NCBI GenBank assembly: GCA_009838195.1
Contig: VXSC01000044.1
Location: 1-64,000 of the forward strand
Direction of reading: 5' to 3'
DNA: 64,000 bases
Origin: Rhodothermaceae bacterium
Lineage (GTDB): Bacteria > Bacteroidota > Rhodothermia > Rhodothermales > Bin80
This document shows, one piece after another, positions 54,607 through 64,000 of this stretch; the first letter of the stretch is position 1; the number at the start of each line of letters is the position of its first letter. The notes under the pieces were generated by a model, which saw nothing but the letters and a program-made list of their open reading frames with translations, did no database searches and was not told the DNA's origin. A program made the position numbers and the translations under genes.

Positions 54607-55491
54607 TTATTCGATTAATACGTTATAGTTGGACAGCCGGGAAGGATCCACATCAGAAAGAAGGTCATACACTTGTCCACGTTCTTCTGCGTCCTGAAAC
54701 ATTCCTACCAGTTCTTTGGATTTTGTGCTGAAAAAAATGTCGAAGACATATTGTCTAGATTGATCATCATACAGATCAGACATAGTTTGTAAGACCTCCA
54801 ACACTTTGGCGCGCGCAGCCTCCATGTCCAAGGTAAATAAATCCAATGCCTCCATATGATACTGATAATACACTTGGCGAAGAGGACGCATACGTGGACT
54901 TGTCATTTGATCTACAATCCGTGCACGTCCGTCAACATCTATAGTACTCCACCCCACGGCGTTCGTAGCTACGGCCAACTGCTGGATACGCTTGGCTTTC
55001 TGAAAATGTTGTTCTCCCCCATATTCACTAAACGAATCATAGTCGTAACCCAACATGAGATAGGCATAGTAGTCTAGTACAGATGTAAGTCCATCGAATC
55101 GTTCGACTTCGAATACCAAAGGGGTTCCTTGTGAATAGTTAAAATCCCACGCTTCATCACTGATCTGCAGCATAGGGGTCTTTGCCATGGTCCCGTAAAT
55201 CGGACGGGTGCTGTTTAAAATTAGTTGTGCACGAAAGGAAGTCAGCGTAAAATTCTGTTGGATCACAACCTGGATGGAGCATTCAATGAGTTCGTGCACT
55301 TCGAACTGATCCTCCGTCCAATTATTGTTGTTCATGTAATCCTCGATTTCCCCTTCCAGCTCATCAAGAAATGAAAAGCCTGAGCCCTCAAGCTGCCGAT
55401 AATTCACCTGCGCAGTACACTGGAACTCCCGCGCAACCGGGGCGGATACGAATCCCGCTAAAACACAAATGAGGATGATCTGTCGCATCAT
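54607..55491 (-). CDS. DUF4835 (PorD-like) protein
   Basis: This protein of about 294 residues has a signal peptide (ending VSAPVA). The N-terminal REFQCTAQVNYRQLEGSGFS resembles DUF4835 proteins linked to type IX secretion (PorD). Most of the length is helical and acidic. The longer frame reaches 55572, but the ATG at 55491 (or 55488) places the signal at the start. Other type IX genes are not in the window. It is followed 4 bp later by DUF411. Confidence 0.85.
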   Translation of the reverse strand: MMRQIILICVLAGFVSAPVAREFQCTAQVNYRQLEGSGFSFLDELEGEIEDYMNNNNWTEDQFEVHELIECSIQVVIQQNFTLTSFRAQLILNSTRPIYGTMAKTPMLQISDEAWDFNYSQGTPLVFEVERFDGLTSVLDYYAYLMLGYDYDSFSEYGGEQHFQKAKRIQQLAVATNAVGWSTIDVDGRARIVDQMTSPRMRPLRQVYYQYHMEALDLFTLDMEAARAKVLEVLQTMSDLYDDQSRQYVFDIFFSTKSKELVGMFQDAEERGQVYDLLSDVDPSRLSNYNVLIE

Positions 55492-55762
55492 CGTTTGGTT
55501 TTGACACCAAGGGTTATGCCGGATGTACTGTTTTGACGTATACAAAGCTGCATGATTCCAACGGTTCAGCAAGTCCCCCAGATCTCATCAAGCATGAACT
55601 TACAGAATCCCTTTCCACTATATCATGTGTGGAAAAAGATTGATCGCGATTGCAGTTCCTGCCAGTTTTTATAATTGATACTACGGAAAAACTGCTTCCC
55701 GCCGCCCGTACAAAATTTGGCCCAATTTGTTCGTTCATCGGATACCTTGCAAGCATTGGAGA

Positions 55763-58582
55763 TTACATGAGCGAGAAGTACCCCTTATTAAAATCCAATG
55801 GATTAAACGAGGCACGTACTTCCAAGTCCAAATAATGCAGTAGCCGGAACTGAAGCCCCATCCCGAGCCCCGCCGACCAGTTGCCACGATAATCTGGGCT
55901 GACAACTACTCTCTGTATAAATCCATACACGTAGAGAACCTTGAAGTATGAAGGCACGGTCAGGAATCCATTTTGTATGTACCAAACAGGTTGCAGAATT
56001 TCTGCATCAACCCGAACGTGCGCTCCCCTGCCCAGAAATGCTTCGTGCCCCCTGGGAAGAACTAACGACCGGCTATATACCCCGGCACCATTTTGAGACA
56101 ATAGAGACGCACCCAGTATCATACTTGTGTTCGATCTCCGGGAAATGGACCAGTACTGGTTTAGTCTCATGTAGAAACCCGTCCGTCTGGGATCACGTTC
56201 TCGGATCACATCTGCACGTCCATATATCCCAAGAACTGTCCCTCTGTTTGGCCGCACGTCCCGTGTATTCTGCTGCAAGCCAACGGCAAGTAAAATACCT
56301 ATATCCACGCGCGTGCTGCGCTCCCATTCAGCAAGGGATTGACGTGTATCTCTTCGATACGGAACTGGATTCTCATCCAGGCTGAACCACCGTGTCCGCT
56401 CACTGCGTACACCTGCGAGGATGCTGGCATAACTATGACGCACATTCGCTTCAAAGCGAAGTGGGAGGGTGAATGTCATTCCAATCCCCCTGGATTGCTC
56501 TCCATAGGTGATATCCCGGATGGATTCTTTTCCATCTTCCTGCGTCAGGACCCTAGCAATGGCAACATCAGGCTGGCTATAGACGTCAATAGTTGCGACC
56601 ACCGGACGAAAAACTGCACTCACCTCCGCCCGCCCCCATAGCTTTCGTGCCTGTACGGTTGTCTCCATCGCATAGGTGCGACGGCGAAGAGGATCACTCC
56701 CATGGATTGAGAGTCCGCCACCCAGCCCCAATCTTCTTTCTGGAGTATCGTTTGACCACACACCTACAGGGAGAAACATCCGAGGAAAAAGCCTTTCCCA
56801 TGATTTGTATGGCTCGTGAGTGAAATCTTTCGGTAATCCCAACCTGGAGGAAATCTTGGGCAACTCACTCACGGGCGTAAGGGGTACTTCGACCCACTCT
56901 TCTGGGGCAAATTCCACAGCCACAACATTATAGCGCTCATGCTGGTAATCAACATAAACGAGGGTGCGATTATCCTCAGAGAGGATAGGGTCTAGTGCCC
57001 CGTACAGGACATCTGAAAGCTGCAGTGTGCGCTTCGATTCCAGGTCATGACATAATACGTTGGTTACGCTACCCAACTCTGCGGTGAAGAGGAGGTATCG
57101 TCCATCCGAACTCCATGAGAGCTCACGAATCGCTGCACCATCGATGAAAATCCATGGCTCCAGCACCCCGCTTGAATCCGCACGATAAATTGCCTGCGCC
57201 CGATCATGTCGAACCAGGACGGCAGTGGTTTCCGCCGAGGGCGCGATCTGGATAAGATCTGCCTGACTTCGGCCGCGAATCGTCTGAATACCGCCAACTG
57301 CATCAACCTCAATCCAGGTGTTGCGCTGTCCATCATTTTGAAGTGCCCAAATACCGGAGGAGCTCTGTACAGGGACATGGGCACGAGCTCCTTGAGTTAG
57401 ACGTCTCTCCCGATTCTCAGATAGATCGTACTCGAATATATCTGCAGATGAAGCCAGCGTCGAAAACCGGTCTGGAACATAGCGGGAATAGAGTATGACA
57501 CTATCTGCTACGCTAAACCATGCATCTTCCGGTAACTGGACGGAGTGAATTCGTTTCGTGGCTCCGCTCTCAATATCCAGACTATACAGTCCCGGAGTTT
57601 CATTTAGTCCTCTCCGGTATACGACGAGTGTCGAATCATTCAACCATTGTGGCCGACGCTGCAGGATACCCGGACTTTCTACAATGGGCTCTTGCAACCT
57701 TGGACGTCGATGGACTAGCGTAGTCGACGTCTCCTGCCGAAACTCAGTAACCAATTCACTTAAAGGCTGGCCAGTTGTGCGACGTAAATCCAACCCCGTT
57801 GATCGGACTGGGTTACGAAACCGCTGGGTCCGCATCTTTTCAAAGAAGAGGCCCTGGTCCTTTGAATACTGCCAAGCGAAAAAGTTGGCACCTCCGATAT
57901 AGTGACGATTGGCGTGAAAACCATACCGGGACGACTCGAAGAGCTGTGACAGGCTCCATGGGCGCTCAGATGCCGCTGCGGCTCGGTACTGCATCTGAAA
58001 TCGAGCATCATTCAACCGCCCCGCGCCGTGAGGTCCTGGGCTCTCAAAATAAACTGCAGCTCCTTCATTCAGGCCTGGCGGCAAAGACAAATTCAATGCG
58101 CGCGCAGCGTCGGGTGCAAACCAATGAAGGACCTTTCCCACCCCCCACGGCCCGCTTGCCTGCGCTTGTGTGGCATGTACCAGTTCATGCGTCGCAACTG
58201 CTTCAATCCATGAATGGGACCTTGTCCCTATCCGGTTTCCCTTAATGTGAGGAACTTCGATCTCTTGTCGAAATGGATGGGTATGGACGTACCCGTTGGC
58301 TCGATCACTGGAGTTGTTCAGGATCACCGGCATCCACATCTTCCCAGCCAACCCGGAAAGAGACTGTGCCTCGGGGAGTGTTCGCTCTAAGATGAGCGCA
58401 GTCTGCCAAGCCTCTACCTCACTTCCTTCTTCAAAAATGATCTCAAAATGCTGTGCCTTATGGACGCGATATTTACTCCCCAGCGGCCGCACAACAGGTT
58501 CGTAGTATTGCCCCAGAACAGACGAGGGGACCAGGAATGCAATCGTAAAAGCAATCAGAGATTTTGACAGCCTGTGAACCAT
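55763..58582 (-). CDS. Zinc-peptidase / beta-propeller / outer-membrane barrel protein
   Basis: This 939-residue protein has a signal peptide (ending SSVLGQ). Residues about 25-280 form a gluzincin-like metallopeptidase domain. The motif AVATHELVHATQA has His132, Glu133 and His136, and NEGAAVYFE offers Glu173 as the third ligand. Residues about 300-600 show TolB/WD40-like blades (RRPQWLNDSTLVVYRRG, LSWSSDGRYLLFTAE). Residues about 640-939 are beta-rich (WSAGLGMGLQFRLLHYLDLEV) and end ...GYFSLM, compatible with an outer-membrane barrel. I infer a cell-surface protease with a propeller adaptor; each domain class is known but I do not recognise this combination. Two hairpins lie in its leader. 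Confidence 0.8.
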   Translation of the reverse strand: MVHRLSKSLIAFTIAFLVPSSVLGQYYEPVVRPLGSKYRVHKAQHFEIIFEEGSEVEAWQTALILERTLPEAQSLSGLAGKMWMPVILNNSSDRANGYVHTHPFRQEIEVPHIKGNRIGTRSHSWIEAVATHELVHATQAQASGPWGVGKVLHWFAPDAARALNLSLPPGLNEGAAVYFESPGPHGAGRLNDARFQMQYRAAAASERPWSLSQLFESSRYGFHANRHYIGGANFFAWQYSKDQGLFFEKMRTQRFRNPVRSTGLDLRRTTGQPLSELVTEFRQETSTTLVHRRPRLQEPIVESPGILQRRPQWLNDSTLVVYRRGLNETPGLYSLDIESGATKRIHSVQLPEDAWFSVADSVILYSRYVPDRFSTLASSADIFEYDLSENRERRLTQGARAHVPVQSSSGIWALQNDGQRNTWIEVDAVGGIQTIRGRSQADLIQIAPSAETTAVLVRHDRAQAIYRADSSGVLEPWIFIDGAAIRELSWSSDGRYLLFTAELGSVTNVLCHDLESKRTLQLSDVLYGALDPILSEDNRTLVYVDYQHERYNVVAVEFAPEEWVEVPLTPVSELPKISSRLGLPKDFTHEPYKSWERLFPRMFLPVGVWSNDTPERRLGLGGGLSIHGSDPLRRRTYAMETTVQARKLWGRAEVSAVFRPVVATIDVYSQPDVAIARVLTQEDGKESIRDITYGEQSRGIGMTFTLPLRFEANVRHSYASILAGVRSERTRWFSLDENPVPYRRDTRQSLAEWERSTRVDIGILLAVGLQQNTRDVRPNRGTVLGIYGRADVIRERDPRRTGFYMRLNQYWSISRRSNTSMILGASLLSQNGAGVYSRSLVLPRGHEAFLGRGAHVRVDAEILQPVWYIQNGFLTVPSYFKVLYVYGFIQRVVVSPDYRGNWSAGLGMGLQFRLLHYLDLEVRASFNPLDFNKGYFSLM

Positions 58583-58621: not shown

Positions 58622-58745
58622 TATCTCTCATTGGATCACCATCGATCGTGAGGTTAAGATTCGGGAACAGACGGACTCTTTCAGAAGATAGGCCTTCTGA
58701 GGTAGCCTTGTGCTTGATCGGGTATACCCACATCTCAGAAGAAAG

Positions 58746-58831
58746 CGGAGGGGGAGGGATTCGAACCCCCGGTAGGCAATGCCTACAATGGTTTTCGAGA
58801 CCACCCCGTTCGACCACTCCGGCACCCCTCC
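58746..58831 (-). tRNA. tRNA-Ser (anticodon CGA)
   Basis: An 86-nt class II tRNA fits by eye: acceptor GGAGGGG/CCCCTCC and a D-arm CCG...CGG. The anticodon stem-loop GTGGT-CTCGAAA-ACCAT has anticodon CGA (reads UCG). A long variable arm GTAGGC-ATT-GCCTAC and T-arm GGGGG-TTCGAAT-CCCTC follow, with discriminator G. The long variable arm confirms serine. CCA is not encoded. It lies 41 bp downstream of alaS on the same strand and may share its transcript. Confidence 0.95.
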
Positions 58832-58872: not shown

Positions 58873-61746
58873 TTATGCCGATGCAGGCAATACGCTGCGA
58901 ATCAACTCTGGTGCATTCTCGAGCACAGCACCTAGCTTTTCAGGCTCTCGTCCACCCGCTGTGGCAAGCTCCGGCCGGCCCCCGCCCCCACCGCCAATTT
59001 GACGCGCAAAGTGACCAGCTATCTTCCCTGCATTCACGCCCTTGGATAATAAGTCATCCGTCACAACAGCCACCAAATAAGCTTTTTGCCCACCGGGATC
59101 CCTTGCACCCAAGATCCCTACACTGGATGCATTCAGGCGCTGCCGTAGCTCCTGCCCCTGTGCCCGCAACATATCCATATCTGCATCGTCAATCTGCCCG
59201 GTAGCCAAATGAATATCATCTACGGTGACCATACTGTTTAGTACTCCATCCAACTGCGCGGAAAGTCGCTCATGACGAAGTTTTTCCACCTCCTTCTGAA
59301 GGAGACGATTCGCCTCAAGGAGCTCTGCCACAGACTCCTCCACGGGGCGCTTTAATCCCCTGAACTGCCTTCTGGTTTGCTCCAGTGAGGTCCGCTCCCG
59401 AGTCACCATATCGACTGCATCCACTCCCGCTATGGCTTCAACGCGGCGGACCCCCGTGGCAATCGAGCCTTCGGATTGCAATATGAAAAGTCCTATTTCA
59501 CCCGTGGCTTGCACATGAGTCCCCCCACATAATTCTACAGAGAACGCTGGATCGAACGTGACCACGCGAACCACATCCCCATACTTCTCTCCAAAGAGTG
59601 CTGTTGCCCCTCGTGCCAATGCTTCTTTGTAGGGAACCTCTGGATCAATTTCCGCAGCAATATTTCGCTGTATCTGCTCATTGACCCGATCCTGGACACG
59701 TCGTAGATCCTCCACACTTACCCGCTCATAGTGATTGAAATCAAACCGTAGATGTCCTTCTGCGACTAGCGACCCCCTCTGCTCTGCTCCAGGCCCTAGA
59801 ACCTCTCGTAATGCGGCATGCATCAGGTGTGTTGCCGTATGATGCTTTGCAATTCGATGACGACGCTCTGCATCTACGATAGCCGTTACTGGGCACTTCA
59901 GCGTCGATGGAAAGCGATCCACCCTGTGAGTAATCTGACTTCCCACAATCTGCGTGTCTGTCACCTGGATCACTTCACCATCGAAATTAAGTGTTCCAGT
60001 ATCTCCAATCTGTCCTCCTTTTTCCGCATAGAAAGGACTCCGGTCCAGTACGATGACTCCCGCATCTTCGTCCGATGCAATAACTCGCGCCCCTTCCAGA
60101 GTGGTCTGCTCGTAGCCAACAAACTCCGACTTGTGGCTTCCATCTACCTTCCCGATTGACTGAACTACGGCTTCTGTAGATTTCGCACTGCGTGCGCGGT
60201 GCCTCTGCTCTGCCATCAACTCTTCAAAGCGTGACATATCGACCCGGCGCCCCCGCTCACGGGCCATGAGCTGCGTCAGATCAATGGGGAACCCATAGGT
60301 GTCATGCAATAGAAATGCAACCTCTCCCGGGATACGGCTCAGTTTAACGACCGAGACAAACCGGCGAAGCATTTCGCCTGGCACAGCCCTGTCCATCGTA
60401 CTTGCGTAGGCTTTCCGTAAGAGATCCTGGGCCGAGGCATCTTCCCGTAATTGGTCTACGAACGCGTCTTCCTCCTCAGAAGTGACCCCATCTATATAAT
60501 CGCATACCCGATCAAACAGTGCCAATCCACGTCCTAGTGTGTGCAAGAATGCACGCTCTTCCCCGCGAATATTTTCTGTGACAAGCTTCTCTCTAGTGCG
60601 CAATTCTGGGAAAATCTCCGCAAGAGATTCAATCACAACGGGCACCAAGCGACAAAGGAATGGCTCCTTGATCTTCAGAGTGGTGTATCCATAGCGTACT
60701 GCACGGCGCAGGATCCTGCGAATCACATATCCCCGCCCCACATTCCCGGGGACGACCCCATCCGCAACAGCGACTACGGTCCCGCGAATATGATCTACAA
60801 CCACCCGCATTGCCACTCGGATCGCATCTATGTCCAGCGCAGAATCAATATCATCATAACCTCGGATACCAGAGACCGGGGTTAATTCAGCCAATTGATC
60901 CAAAAGCTCCCTAAACGCGTCCGTATCATAGGTACTAATCTTGCCCTGCATCACCGCCGCAAGACGCTCTAAACCCATGCCTGTATCTACATGACGGGCA
61001 GTTAATGGGAGCAGATTCACCGAAGATTGGGCAGTGTCAGTCGAAGTACTCTTGCTGGGCGATGGCTTGTTCACCTGAGCGTCATACTGGATAAACACCA
61101 GATTCCACAGCTCAATCACTGTCGGGAGGTCTTGGTTTACACATTCATGCCCGGGAATTTGCTGGCGCAATTCATCAGGACGCAGATCAATATGGATTTC
61201 GGAGCAGGGGCCGCAGGGGCCTGTCTCCCCCATCATCCAGAAGTTATCTTTCGTACTACCGTACAAAACCTGATTCTCGGGGAGATAGCGCCTCCACAAA
61301 GTGGCAGCCTCTTCATCCGCAGCAAGGTTCAAAGCAACATCGCCCTTATGTACAGTCGCATACAGTCGATCTTCGGGAAGTTTCCAGCGGTTTACCAATA
61401 GCTCCCAGGCCATGTCAATCGCTTCCTCCTTGAAGTAATCCCCGAAGCTCCAATTGCCGAGCATTTCGAAGAAAGTATGATGGTACGTATCATGTCCCAC
61501 CTCTTCGAGATCATTATGCTTTCCAGATACCCGCAGACACTTTTGGGTATCTGCCGCGCGAACATACGACCGCGTTTCCTGCCCCAGGAAGATCTCTTTG
61601 AACTGCGCCATTCCTGAGTTGATAAAGAGCAGCGTAGGATCATCCGCAGGGACCAGAGAGGCACTTGGAACAATCATATGCCCCTTCTCACGAAAAAACT
61701 CCAAAAATTCCGCTCGAATCTGTGCAGTGCTTTTGTATGTCGCCAT
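58873..61746 (-). CDS. alaS: Alanyl-tRNA synthetase
   Basis: This 957-residue class II synthetase charges tRNA-Ala. The N-terminal catalytic motif is FINSGMAQFKEIFLG (about 40-54). The editing-domain zinc site shows HTATHLMHAAL (about 630-640) and CGGTHVQATG (about 735-745). A C-Ala domain carries a GGGGGGRPELATAGG segment near the end. It is longer than the about 875 residues of E. coli AlaRS. The extra length appears mainly between catalytic and editing parts and is not visibly a foreign domain. No SD precedes the ATG. tRNA-Ser follows downstream. Confidence 0.98.
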   Translation of the reverse strand: MATYKSTAQIRAEFLEFFREKGHMIVPSASLVPADDPTLLFINSGMAQFKEIFLGQETRSYVRAADTQKCLRVSGKHNDLEEVGHDTYHHTFFEMLGNWSFGDYFKEEAIDMAWELLVNRWKLPEDRLYATVHKGDVALNLAADEEAATLWRRYLPENQVLYGSTKDNFWMMGETGPCGPCSEIHIDLRPDELRQQIPGHECVNQDLPTVIELWNLVFIQYDAQVNKPSPSKSTSTDTAQSSVNLLPLTARHVDTGMGLERLAAVMQGKISTYDTDAFRELLDQLAELTPVSGIRGYDDIDSALDIDAIRVAMRVVVDHIRGTVVAVADGVVPGNVGRGYVIRRILRRAVRYGYTTLKIKEPFLCRLVPVVIESLAEIFPELRTREKLVTENIRGEERAFLHTLGRGLALFDRVCDYIDGVTSEEEDAFVDQLREDASAQDLLRKAYASTMDRAVPGEMLRRFVSVVKLSRIPGEVAFLLHDTYGFPIDLTQLMARERGRRVDMSRFEELMAEQRHRARSAKSTEAVVQSIGKVDGSHKSEFVGYEQTTLEGARVIASDEDAGVIVLDRSPFYAEKGGQIGDTGTLNFDGEVIQVTDTQIVGSQITHRVDRFPSTLKCPVTAIVDAERRHRIAKHHTATHLMHAALREVLGPGAEQRGSLVAEGHLRFDFNHYERVSVEDLRRVQDRVNEQIQRNIAAEIDPEVPYKEALARGATALFGEKYGDVVRVVTFDPAFSVELCGGTHVQATGEIGLFILQSEGSIATGVRRVEAIAGVDAVDMVTRERTSLEQTRRQFRGLKRPVEESVAELLEANRLLQKEVEKLRHERLSAQLDGVLNSMVTVDDIHLATGQIDDADMDMLRAQGQELRQRLNASSVGILGARDPGGQKAYLVAVVTDDLLSKGVNAGKIAGHFARQIGGGGGGRPELATAGGREPEKLGAVLENAPELIRSVLPASA

Positions 61747-61894
61747 CAGGGAGAATAATTCACAACCCTATAGAACGCTTAACTGGGGAATCTTGTGCCT
61801 TTTGGCAAAAGCAGAGTACCTCCGACGAGCTGTCTGCAACCTGACTAAGTGTTGTTGCGTACGGCAGGTTCAGCATTTTAAAAAACCCAGCCCA

Positions 61895-62995
61895 ATGTAC
61901 GTACATCCCAAATTCATTCCGGCCGCCTTGACTTTGATCATGATAGCGACCTCGGTTCAGGCGCAAATCACGCTTACTCCAATTGACGAGAAATATGCTG
62001 CTGATGAAGTTCGTGACCTCATGGTTAGCGTTGCAGATGCCGATGTTACCGTCAATACATCCGATGTATCCACTGTTGAGGTACAGGTTACCGTGGAAGG
62101 TGACGACCGTGACAAAGCGATGGACTATTACGAGAAGCAAAATTTCAGTGTTACACTTGACCGTGGAACACTGCATGTGAATTCAAAAAGCGAAAGAACC
62201 CGTGGAACATTGTACGGCTGGCGTAACTCGGTAAATATTCATGTGGCGATCAACATGCCATCCAATATCTCCTCAAATATCCGCACATCTGATGGAGATC
62301 TAGTCATTGGTGAGTTAACCGCTGGAACGACAATTGTGACCAGTGATGGGGATATTGAGGCCGCACGGTTGGAAGGCGCCTCTGTCTCGGTTAAGACCAG
62401 TGATGGAGATATCAGCATTTTAGCTGCCTCCAGCGAAAAAATTGCAATACAGACGTCAGACGGAGATATTGAAGCTGGTTGGTTGGAAGGAGCTTCTATT
62501 TCGGTTAGAACCAGTGATGGCGATCTCAAATTGGGCGATGTTGCTGGTGACCTGCAGATTCAAACCTCTGATGGCGACATCATGATTGACTCCATCAACG
62601 GAAAATTGGACGCAAAAACATCCGACGGAGATCTCGCGATCGGTGAAGTCATCTCATCCAACGCAGAAGTGCGAACCTCTGATGGCGAGATAACCATTGG
62701 AACGGCTACTGGAAGCTTGACGCTCAGAACCAGTGATGGCGATGTGGCATTAGGGCTGATTGATCCCGAAAATATCAACGTGACGATCTCCTCTGGCGAT
62801 GCACTCTTAACAATGCCGCAAAATCTGCCTGCCACACTGAATATCAGAGCAAAAGATATAGAGATGGACTCTTTTTCAAACTTCTCGGGAGACCTTGATG
62901 ACTCACGAGTTGACGGGGACCTCAACGGTGGCGGAGCACTCATTCGAGTGCATATATCTGATGGTGATGTCGTCATGCGTGCGATGGAACAATAG
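61895..62995 (+). CDS. DUF4097-like solenoid protein with (T)SDGD repeats
   Basis: This 366-residue secreted protein has a signal peptide (about 1-24, ending SVQAQ). An N-terminal domain (about 25-125) contains YYEKQNFSVTL and WRNSVNIHVAINMP. A solenoid follows with TSDGD/TSDGE at residues 131, 149, 168, 187, 206, 224, 242, 261 and 279 (period 18-19). Diverged copies SSGD, VDGD and ISDGD come near the C-terminus. DUF4097 repeats form a right-handed beta-helix-like stack; the acidic turns could bind calcium (inference). The frame is open upstream to 61598, but the ATG at 61895 gives the signal peptide. A tandem paralogue follows 81 bp later. Confidence 0.9.
   Translation: MYVHPKFIPAALTLIMIATSVQAQITLTPIDEKYAADEVRDLMVSVADADVTVNTSDVSTVEVQVTVEGDDRDKAMDYYEKQNFSVTLDRGTLHVNSKSERTRGTLYGWRNSVNIHVAINMPSNISSNIRTSDGDLVIGELTAGTTIVTSDGDIEAARLEGASVSVKTSDGDISILAASSEKIAIQTSDGDIEAGWLEGASISVRTSDGDLKLGDVAGDLQIQTSDGDIMIDSINGKLDAKTSDGDLAIGEVISSNAEVRTSDGEITIGTATGSLTLRTSDGDVALGLIDPENINVTISSGDALLTMPQNLPATLNIRAKDIEMDSFSNFSGDLDDSRVDGDLNGGGALIRVHISDGDVVMRAMEQ
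62285..62800 (+). repeat. In-frame repeats encoding the SDGD solenoid
   Basis: Nine consecutive units of about 54-57 bp each carry a conserved ACCAGTGATGG(C/A/G)GA or TCTGATGG-type core that encodes TSDGD. Codons vary among units, so the repeat is maintained at protein level and is not a recent DNA duplication. Confidence 0.85.
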
Positions 62996-63076
62996 GCTCT
63001 CCTGCCAATTGATCGGATTGCTTGTCCGTAATCTACCGTCCTGAACCACGCAGACAAATTTCCAGCCCGAAAAATC

Positions 63077-64000
63077 ATGCGATCCTACTCGAAATACATC
63101 CTGATCACTTCACTGTTTTTGTCGGTTGTCACCTTTGCCAGTGCCCAGGTTGCATTCACTCCGATTGAGCAGCAATTTGATGCCAGTGCCGTTTCTGAAT
63201 TGATTATTGATGCACCGAATGCCAACATCACAATCAATACATCAAACCGGTCGGATATAGCCCTCCAAGTCGTGGTGACGGGGAAAAACCAGGAGAGAGT
63301 AGATGATTACTACGAAAGCCAGTATTTTGACCTGACTCTTGAAGAAGGAGCGTTACAACTACTCTCGGAGCCTGACTGGATTAAATTAGATCGTCGTAGT
63401 TGGCGTAACCCACCAACTATTGACGTGGCTATTGCTATGCCTCCAACCGTGTACTCCCAGCTTCGTACACACACTGGGGAGGTACTGGTAAATGAGCTCA
63501 GGGCTGGGGCAGAAATCAGGACATCCAACGGAAAGATCGCTGTCGATTCGATTTCCGGGGGGCCGATAAAACTACGAAGTTCCGATGGACACATCACCGC
63601 CAAAGAGCTCCGGGGATCATCTGTGACTGCCAGAACGATTAATGGCAACATTGTTGTAAACCTTCTTCACAGCGAAGATACAGAGATTCGAACCTCAGAC
63701 GGAAGCATCACCGCCGACAAGATACACGGCACTTCTGTGTCAGCAAGATCGATTAATGGCAGCATCGAGATTGGGGAACTGACATCTAAAAGAGACCTCC
63801 TCCTTCAGAGCTCAGATGGAAACATAACGACCAAACAAATTGATGCTTGGGCTCTGACAGCCAAAGCAATAAATGGCAATGTCAATTTGGGACGGGTATC
63901 CAGTGATCATGCCGAAATACGAACCTCCGATGGATTGATCAGTGTGGAGAAGTTTCAAGGCTCCTCCGTGTCAGCCAGATCAATTAACGGTAACATCAAG
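63077..64000 (+). CDS. DUF4097-like solenoid protein, alternating SDG/ING repeats (3' end beyond window)
   Basis: 308 codons are visible from the ATG at 63077 with no stop. A signal peptide (ending FASAQ) is followed by an N-terminal domain homologous to the upstream protein (FTPIEQQFDAS, DDYYESQYFDLTLEEG, SWRNPPTIDVAIAMP). The solenoid repeats from about residue 150 alternate between (R/Q)(T/S)SDG-x-I and (R/K)(T/S/A)ING-x-I, giving a double unit of about 38 residues. The upstream paralogue is uniform TSDGD. The pair arose by tandem duplication (inference). The C-terminus and any anchor lie outside the window. Confidence 0.9.
   Translation, partial: MRSYSKYILITSLFLSVVTFASAQVAFTPIEQQFDASAVSELIIDAPNANITINTSNRSDIALQVVVTGKNQERVDDYYESQYFDLTLEEGALQLLSEPDWIKLDRRSWRNPPTIDVAIAMPPTVYSQLRTHTGEVLVNELRAGAEIRTSNGKIAVDSISGGPIKLRSSDGHITAKELRGSSVTARTINGNIVVNLLHSEDTEIRTSDGSITADKIHGTSVSARSINGSIEIGELTSKRDLLLQSSDGNITTKQIDAWALTAKAINGNVNLGRVSSDHAEIRTSDGLISVEKFQGSSVSARSINGNIK

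Follow-up and report, generated by a model that had tools for sequence, protein, structure and literature searches.

A predicted gluzincin peptidase joined to a TolB-like propeller and, probably, an Omp85-type barrel in a conserved protein of Rhodothermales and their class

Gene and genomic context

The window, which is the whole stretch of DNA analysed here, covers 64,000 nucleotides of contig VXSC01000044.1 from a Rhodothermaceae bacterium. An initial sequence-only reading of this DNA had proposed a single chain of 939 residues at 55763..58582. The chain is encoded by a real open reading frame, with an ATG start at 58582 and a stop at 55763-55765; the strand, which was absent from that reading, is the minus strand, and the plus-strand reading of the same interval is full of stops. 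The protein begins with a predicted Sec-type signal peptide (residues 1 to approximately 25; 58508..58582, minus strand), read from the sequence as a hydrophobic core, LIAFTIAFLVPSSVLG, followed by Gln25, which is conserved in the family. Inspection of the N-terminal sequence found no lipobox cysteine. The remainder of the chain falls into three parts, these being a gluzincin domain (residues ~26-300), a TolB-like propeller (~301-575), and a probable Omp85-type barrel (~585-939).

Upstream are alaS and, between alaS and the gene, a tRNA-Ser (CGA) gene (58745-58831, minus strand). An ORF of 102 amino acids on the plus strand that overlaps this tRNA gene is a spurious reading of it. Directly downstream is the gene for the T9SS component PorD (54607-55572, minus strand; NCBIfam equivalog, E = 1.2e-79), and the other downstream genes on this strand encode a DUF411 protein, a peptide deformylase, an M23 peptidase, and a protein with a carboxypeptidase-regulatory-like domain. 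Across 24 orthologue regions, PorD is encoded within a few genes of the orthologue in 10, all of them inside the order, and the neighbours differ elsewhere. No gene is a constant partner in these 24 regions and the neighbours vary between families of the class. The proximity of PorD is read here as local gene order rather than as a functional operon, and a link between the gene and the T9SS was not adopted, since PorD lies near the gene in just a part of the class.

Genes for a BlaI/MecI-like repressor and a BlaR1-like M56 peptidase, recognised by eye from their sequence, are next to the orthologue on its downstream side in three families of the order (L056, L060, and L063). Elsewhere in the window, on the plus strand at 61598-64000, two tandem genes contain many 'TSDGD/RTSDG' repeats and, from their sequence alone, look like DUF4097-type beta-helix adhesin-like proteins.

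Domain architecture

The predicted peptidase domain (residues ~26-300; 57683..58507, minus strand) contains the motif HELVH at residues 132-136 (58175..58189), in which His132 and His136 would be zinc ligands and Glu133 the general base. The presumed third ligand, Glu173, is within GLNEGAAVY (58064..58066), and Tyr228 (57899..57901) is a possible transition-state residue, by likeness to other gluzincins. In a family alignment of 46 rows, which includes four duplicate rows and the distant relative L075 and reaches down to ~25% identity, His132, Glu133, His136, Glu173, and Tyr228 are identical in every row and Arg226 is identical in 45. A chance match to HExxH was rejected, due to this invariance of the zinc site. 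The combination of HExxH with a downstream glutamate ligand is that of the gluzincins, clan MA(E).

Neither the whole window protein nor its isolated N-terminal domain is matched by the Pfam model Peptidase_MA_2 (PF13485). When this domain was compared by hhalign with the N-terminal domains of three groups of paralogues, it matched them with E = 9e-10, 3e-12, and 2e-15, values that come from single pairwise comparisons and not from a database search, and the HExxH motifs were aligned with each other in the alignment that was inspected. The Peptidase_MA_2 cut-off of 32.4 bits is exceeded by paralogues L136 (36.0), L146 (42.2), L150 (44.2), and L152 (61.8). This places the domain within the Peptidase MA type as a divergent representative, homologous to groups with members that pass this model.

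The second part (residues ~301-575; 56858..57682, minus strand) is a beta-propeller of the TolB/PD40 type. The family profile matches TolB structures in the PDB, the best being 7mx5 (E = 7.5e-14), and PD40 is matched at E <= 0.1 by 24 of the 26 orthologues. On its own the window protein scores 16.6 bits against PD40, under the cut-off of 20.9, and the TolB profile (TIGR02800) matches it with E = 8e-6, far under the score needed to call a TolB. The stretch of ~275 residues would fit six blades. Residues ~450-570 are the sole confident region of the AlphaFold model of the full chain.

The C-terminal third (residues ~585-939; 55766..56830, minus strand) is very likely an outer-membrane barrel of the Omp85 type, although this is probable rather than proven. 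The window protein scores 15.6 bits against Pfam Omp85, under the cut-off of 24, whereas its orthologue L062, from another family of the order and 31% identical, scores 29.3 bits (E = 7.8e-7) and passes it. The match of L062 spans model positions 48-292 of 325 (245 positions) and was also found independently in a six-frame search. Alternating amphipathic segments of ten residues number 16 in the C-terminal third, compared with 9.9 +/- 2.3 when the columns are shuffled, and only 0.3% of shuffles reach 16; the other two domains do not have this excess. The motif RD(x2)P(x2)G at 774-781 (RDxxPNxG), the RD...G of which is invariant in the 41 distinct rows of the alignment, recalls the D...P..G motif found in BamA and TamA-like proteins from the same genomes. 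Likewise, a degenerate PRG at 843-845 resembles the L6 motif (V/L)RG[FYW]; it is a PRG[HYFW]-like form (843-846) and not (V/I)RG(F/Y), and its arginine is kept in 26 of the 41 rows. A terminal phenylalanine after an alternating strand is usual for outer-membrane proteins, and orthologues from a second order often end in this way. No POTRA domain was found in Pfam scans of the window protein and its orthologues.

Set against the BamA, TamA-like, and TamL barrels of relatives in profile-profile comparison, the barrel gave no significant match (the lowest E was 0.011, and a shuffled control reached 0.031), and the barrels of the paralogues gave none either, by a method that is weak for barrels, given that BamA and TamL of the same genomes match each other with only E = 0.004. 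AlphaFold gave mean pLDDT values of 32 for the full chain and 30 for the barrel alone, in each case from an alignment of no more than four sequences, the window protein with three close relatives. The full-chain model shows helices in the barrel region at pLDDT < 35, which is too low to count as evidence.

These results bear on what the sequence-only reading had described. The intact HExxH...E site was given at the correct positions and proves invariant throughout the family, and the propeller region is borne out by the TolB structures and by PD40 in the orthologues. The C-terminal barrel is the least secure of the three: the strand statistics, motifs, C-termini, and the score of L062 are in its favour, and the window protein itself falls short of the cut-off.

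Distribution and conservation

Some match to the protein is present in 52 of 59 genomes of relatives, and the closest relatives by named records are Rhodothermales. Every sampled member of the genus and family has a full-length, single-copy orthologue, as do most other families of the order, with identities of 31-77%. In other families of the same class, most sampled members have a near-full-length match to the profile. Outside the class, elsewhere in the phylum, most profile matches cover just the propeller, in cousins whose length is similar. No relatives were found in a scan of viral contigs or in a plasmid search. The search for full-length homologues that had been suggested at the outset thus finds orthologues across nearly the whole class; a literature search, with most subscription journals outside its reach, found no characterised one. 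One full-length copy in nearly all of the sampled class members fits a housekeeping role.

Regional identity and motif counts were taken from the 41 distinct rows of the alignment. Mean pairwise identity is 48% over residues 85-235, 34% over the propeller, and 30% over the barrel, making the peptidase core the slowest-changing part of the protein and the barrel the fastest. Selection thus constrains the peptidase more than the other parts.

Paralogues

The same genome, of 3 Mb, encodes at least three further proteins of ~980-1090 residues in which HExxH lies near residue 137-140 and which also have a TolB-like propeller. They are C20 (L136), C27 (L137), and C32 (L138), all on other contigs. 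Omp85 reaches the Pfam cut-off in C20 and C27, and was not found in C32; L136 clearly exceeds the cut-off, as do L146 and L150. In a tree of the N-terminal part, the window family is separate from the paralogue groups with support of 0.87. In the paralogues, current Pfam models already detect Peptidase_MA_2, PD40, and Omp85 together, so that databases already contain this architecture.

Proposed role

There is about an even chance that the protein is a periplasmic metallopeptidase anchored in the outer membrane, with a part in envelope quality control or processing that would resemble the work of BepA. The protein would be exported by Sec and its C-terminal barrel would insert in the outer membrane, leaving the gluzincin domain and the propeller attached to the barrel at its periplasmic face. 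Periplasmic placement of the peptidase is expected because the N-terminal parts of Omp85 proteins are periplasmic by precedent, including that of PlpD (PMC11116518). The propeller may gate or restrict access, or present substrates, and the predicted zinc site would have peptidase activity and cleave them. The likeliest job would be envelope maintenance, in which outer-membrane or exported proteins are trimmed or removed close to the assembly machinery. Of the steps proposed, this quality-control or processing role, suggested by likeness to BepA, is the least certain. The genome also encodes an M48 peptidase, so a BepA-like role is not vacant, and since the neighbours differ between families no operon partner points to a link with BAM.

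BamB, a partner of BamA, is a beta-propeller. An Omp85-like barrel with a propeller before it might belong to what is chiefly an outer-membrane assembly factor, a fusion like BamA with BamB in which the peptidase has just a helper role, cutting or sensing clients, in keeping with the proposal made for WD40-Omp85 proteins (Heinz and Lithgow, 2014; PMC4104836). This is unlikely. The arginine of the L6-type motif, near-universal in working Omp85 insertases, persists in only 26 of 41 rows, which makes BamA-like insertase work doubtful, while the RD...G of the barrel and all of the zinc ligands are invariant. The lack of a detected POTRA domain, the separate BamA, TamA-like, and TamL-like proteins in these genomes, and the rapid change of the barrel also argue against it.

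Surface and secreted proteases are frequent among heterotrophic Bacteroidota, and the gene for PorD, a T9SS component, is the immediate neighbour in the window and lies near the orthologue in the 10 regions noted above. Both would suit a peptidase and propeller exposed at the cell surface, or carried out through the barrel as a type-Vd-like passenger, digesting external proteins or processing those of the surface. This is a distinctly unlikely explanation, because the domains are arranged as in Omp85 proteins whose N-terminal parts are periplasmic, TolB-type propellers are periplasmic, there is no T9SS sorting domain, the C-terminus being the barrel, and the type-Vd model has been overturned for PlpD itself (PMC11116518). 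The term surface protein, used in the sequence-only reading, is accordingly not supported; nothing in the sequence favours export of the peptidase, and in PlpD, the single enzyme-Omp85 fusion to have been tested, the enzyme domain is periplasmic.

It is improbable that the C-terminal region is some other beta-rich domain and the protein a soluble periplasmic peptidase-propeller, as might be argued from the Omp85 score of the window protein, the non-significant profile-profile tests, and the AlphaFold models without a confident fold (from a shallow alignment of four close sequences), given that L062 passes the cut-off over 245 of the 325 model positions, paralogues L136, L146, and L150 clearly pass it, the 16 alternating segments are in the C-terminal third only, and terminal aromatic residues of the outer-membrane protein type are present.

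The anchored periplasmic metallopeptidase is therefore preferred. A fuller version of it can be put forward only tentatively: in this class-wide, single-copy zinc peptidase, the Omp85 barrel may have given up insertase work and now be the anchor, or the substrate port, of a propeller-gated protease for outer-membrane quality control or processing, with the several paralogues in each genome specialised for different clients. To our knowledge, almost all of the Omp85 proteins studied so far act in the assembly or movement of other proteins, and PlpD demonstrated that an Omp85 barrel can also carry an enzyme. If the present proposal is true, the near-universal gluzincin-propeller-Omp85 protein of a class of Bacteroidota would be a second, different case of an enzyme joined to Omp85, and the WD40-Omp85 subfamily would be reframed, at least in part, as membrane-anchored peptidases. 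The prediction is that it is the zinc site that matters, rather than the insertase motif of the barrel.

Comparison with known systems

The nearest published description is that of the WD40-Omp85 subfamily, in which a TolB-like propeller precedes the barrel, an arrangement likened to a fusion of BamA and BamB, and there is no POTRA domain (Heinz and Lithgow, 2014; PMC4104836). The window protein shares the propeller N-terminal to a probable Omp85-type barrel and the lack of POTRA, but differs from the subfamily as described there in that its propeller follows an intact gluzincin domain, the best-conserved part of the protein. The main text of that paper never uses the word peptidase and names no peptidase for WD40-Omp85 proteins (PMC4104836). 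In 2024, the WD40 and metalloprotease Omp85 proteins were still listed as uncharacterised (PMC11116518).

The sequence-only reading had not recognised the combination of domains. Fusions of a propeller with Omp85 have been known since 2014 (PMC4104836) and Pfam sees the three domains in paralogues, so the combination itself is not new; the protease part of WD40-Omp85-type proteins is, as far as could be seen, undescribed in print. The Pfam family PF00149 is that of the calcineurin-like metallophosphoesterases and not a protease family. It defines a separate 'metalloprotease' Omp85 subfamily (PMC4104836), for which that label is probably a misnomer.

The same three domains in the same order, Peptidase_MA_2 (PF13485), PD40 (PF07676), and Omp85 (PF01103), are present in tri-domain proteins of Bacteroidota such as L136 and L150, in which all three are over or near the Pfam cut-offs. 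The window family differs from these in forming a separate clade (support 0.87) and in being too divergent for Pfam's peptidase model.

In the patatin-Omp85 protein PlpD of Pseudomonas aeruginosa, the enzyme domain is periplasmic, an earlier claim of surface display having been overturned (PMC11116518). PlpD has its enzyme domain N-terminal to an Omp85 barrel, the arrangement predicted for the window protein, and it serves here as the model for topology; unlike the window protein, PlpD has a lipolytic patatin domain with POTRA and has neither a propeller nor a zinc peptidase. BepA of Escherichia coli is a zinc peptidase that degrades or helps outer-membrane proteins during their assembly at BAM (PMC8423444; PMC13067283). 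As an envelope HExxH peptidase at the outer membrane it would resemble the window protein as proposed here, and the comparison is proposed for function only, since BepA is soluble, belongs to another peptidase family (M48), and has a TPR domain but no barrel or propeller. Overall, the window protein is best filed as a probable extension of the partly described propeller-Omp85 type, one that carries an intact and strongly conserved gluzincin domain.
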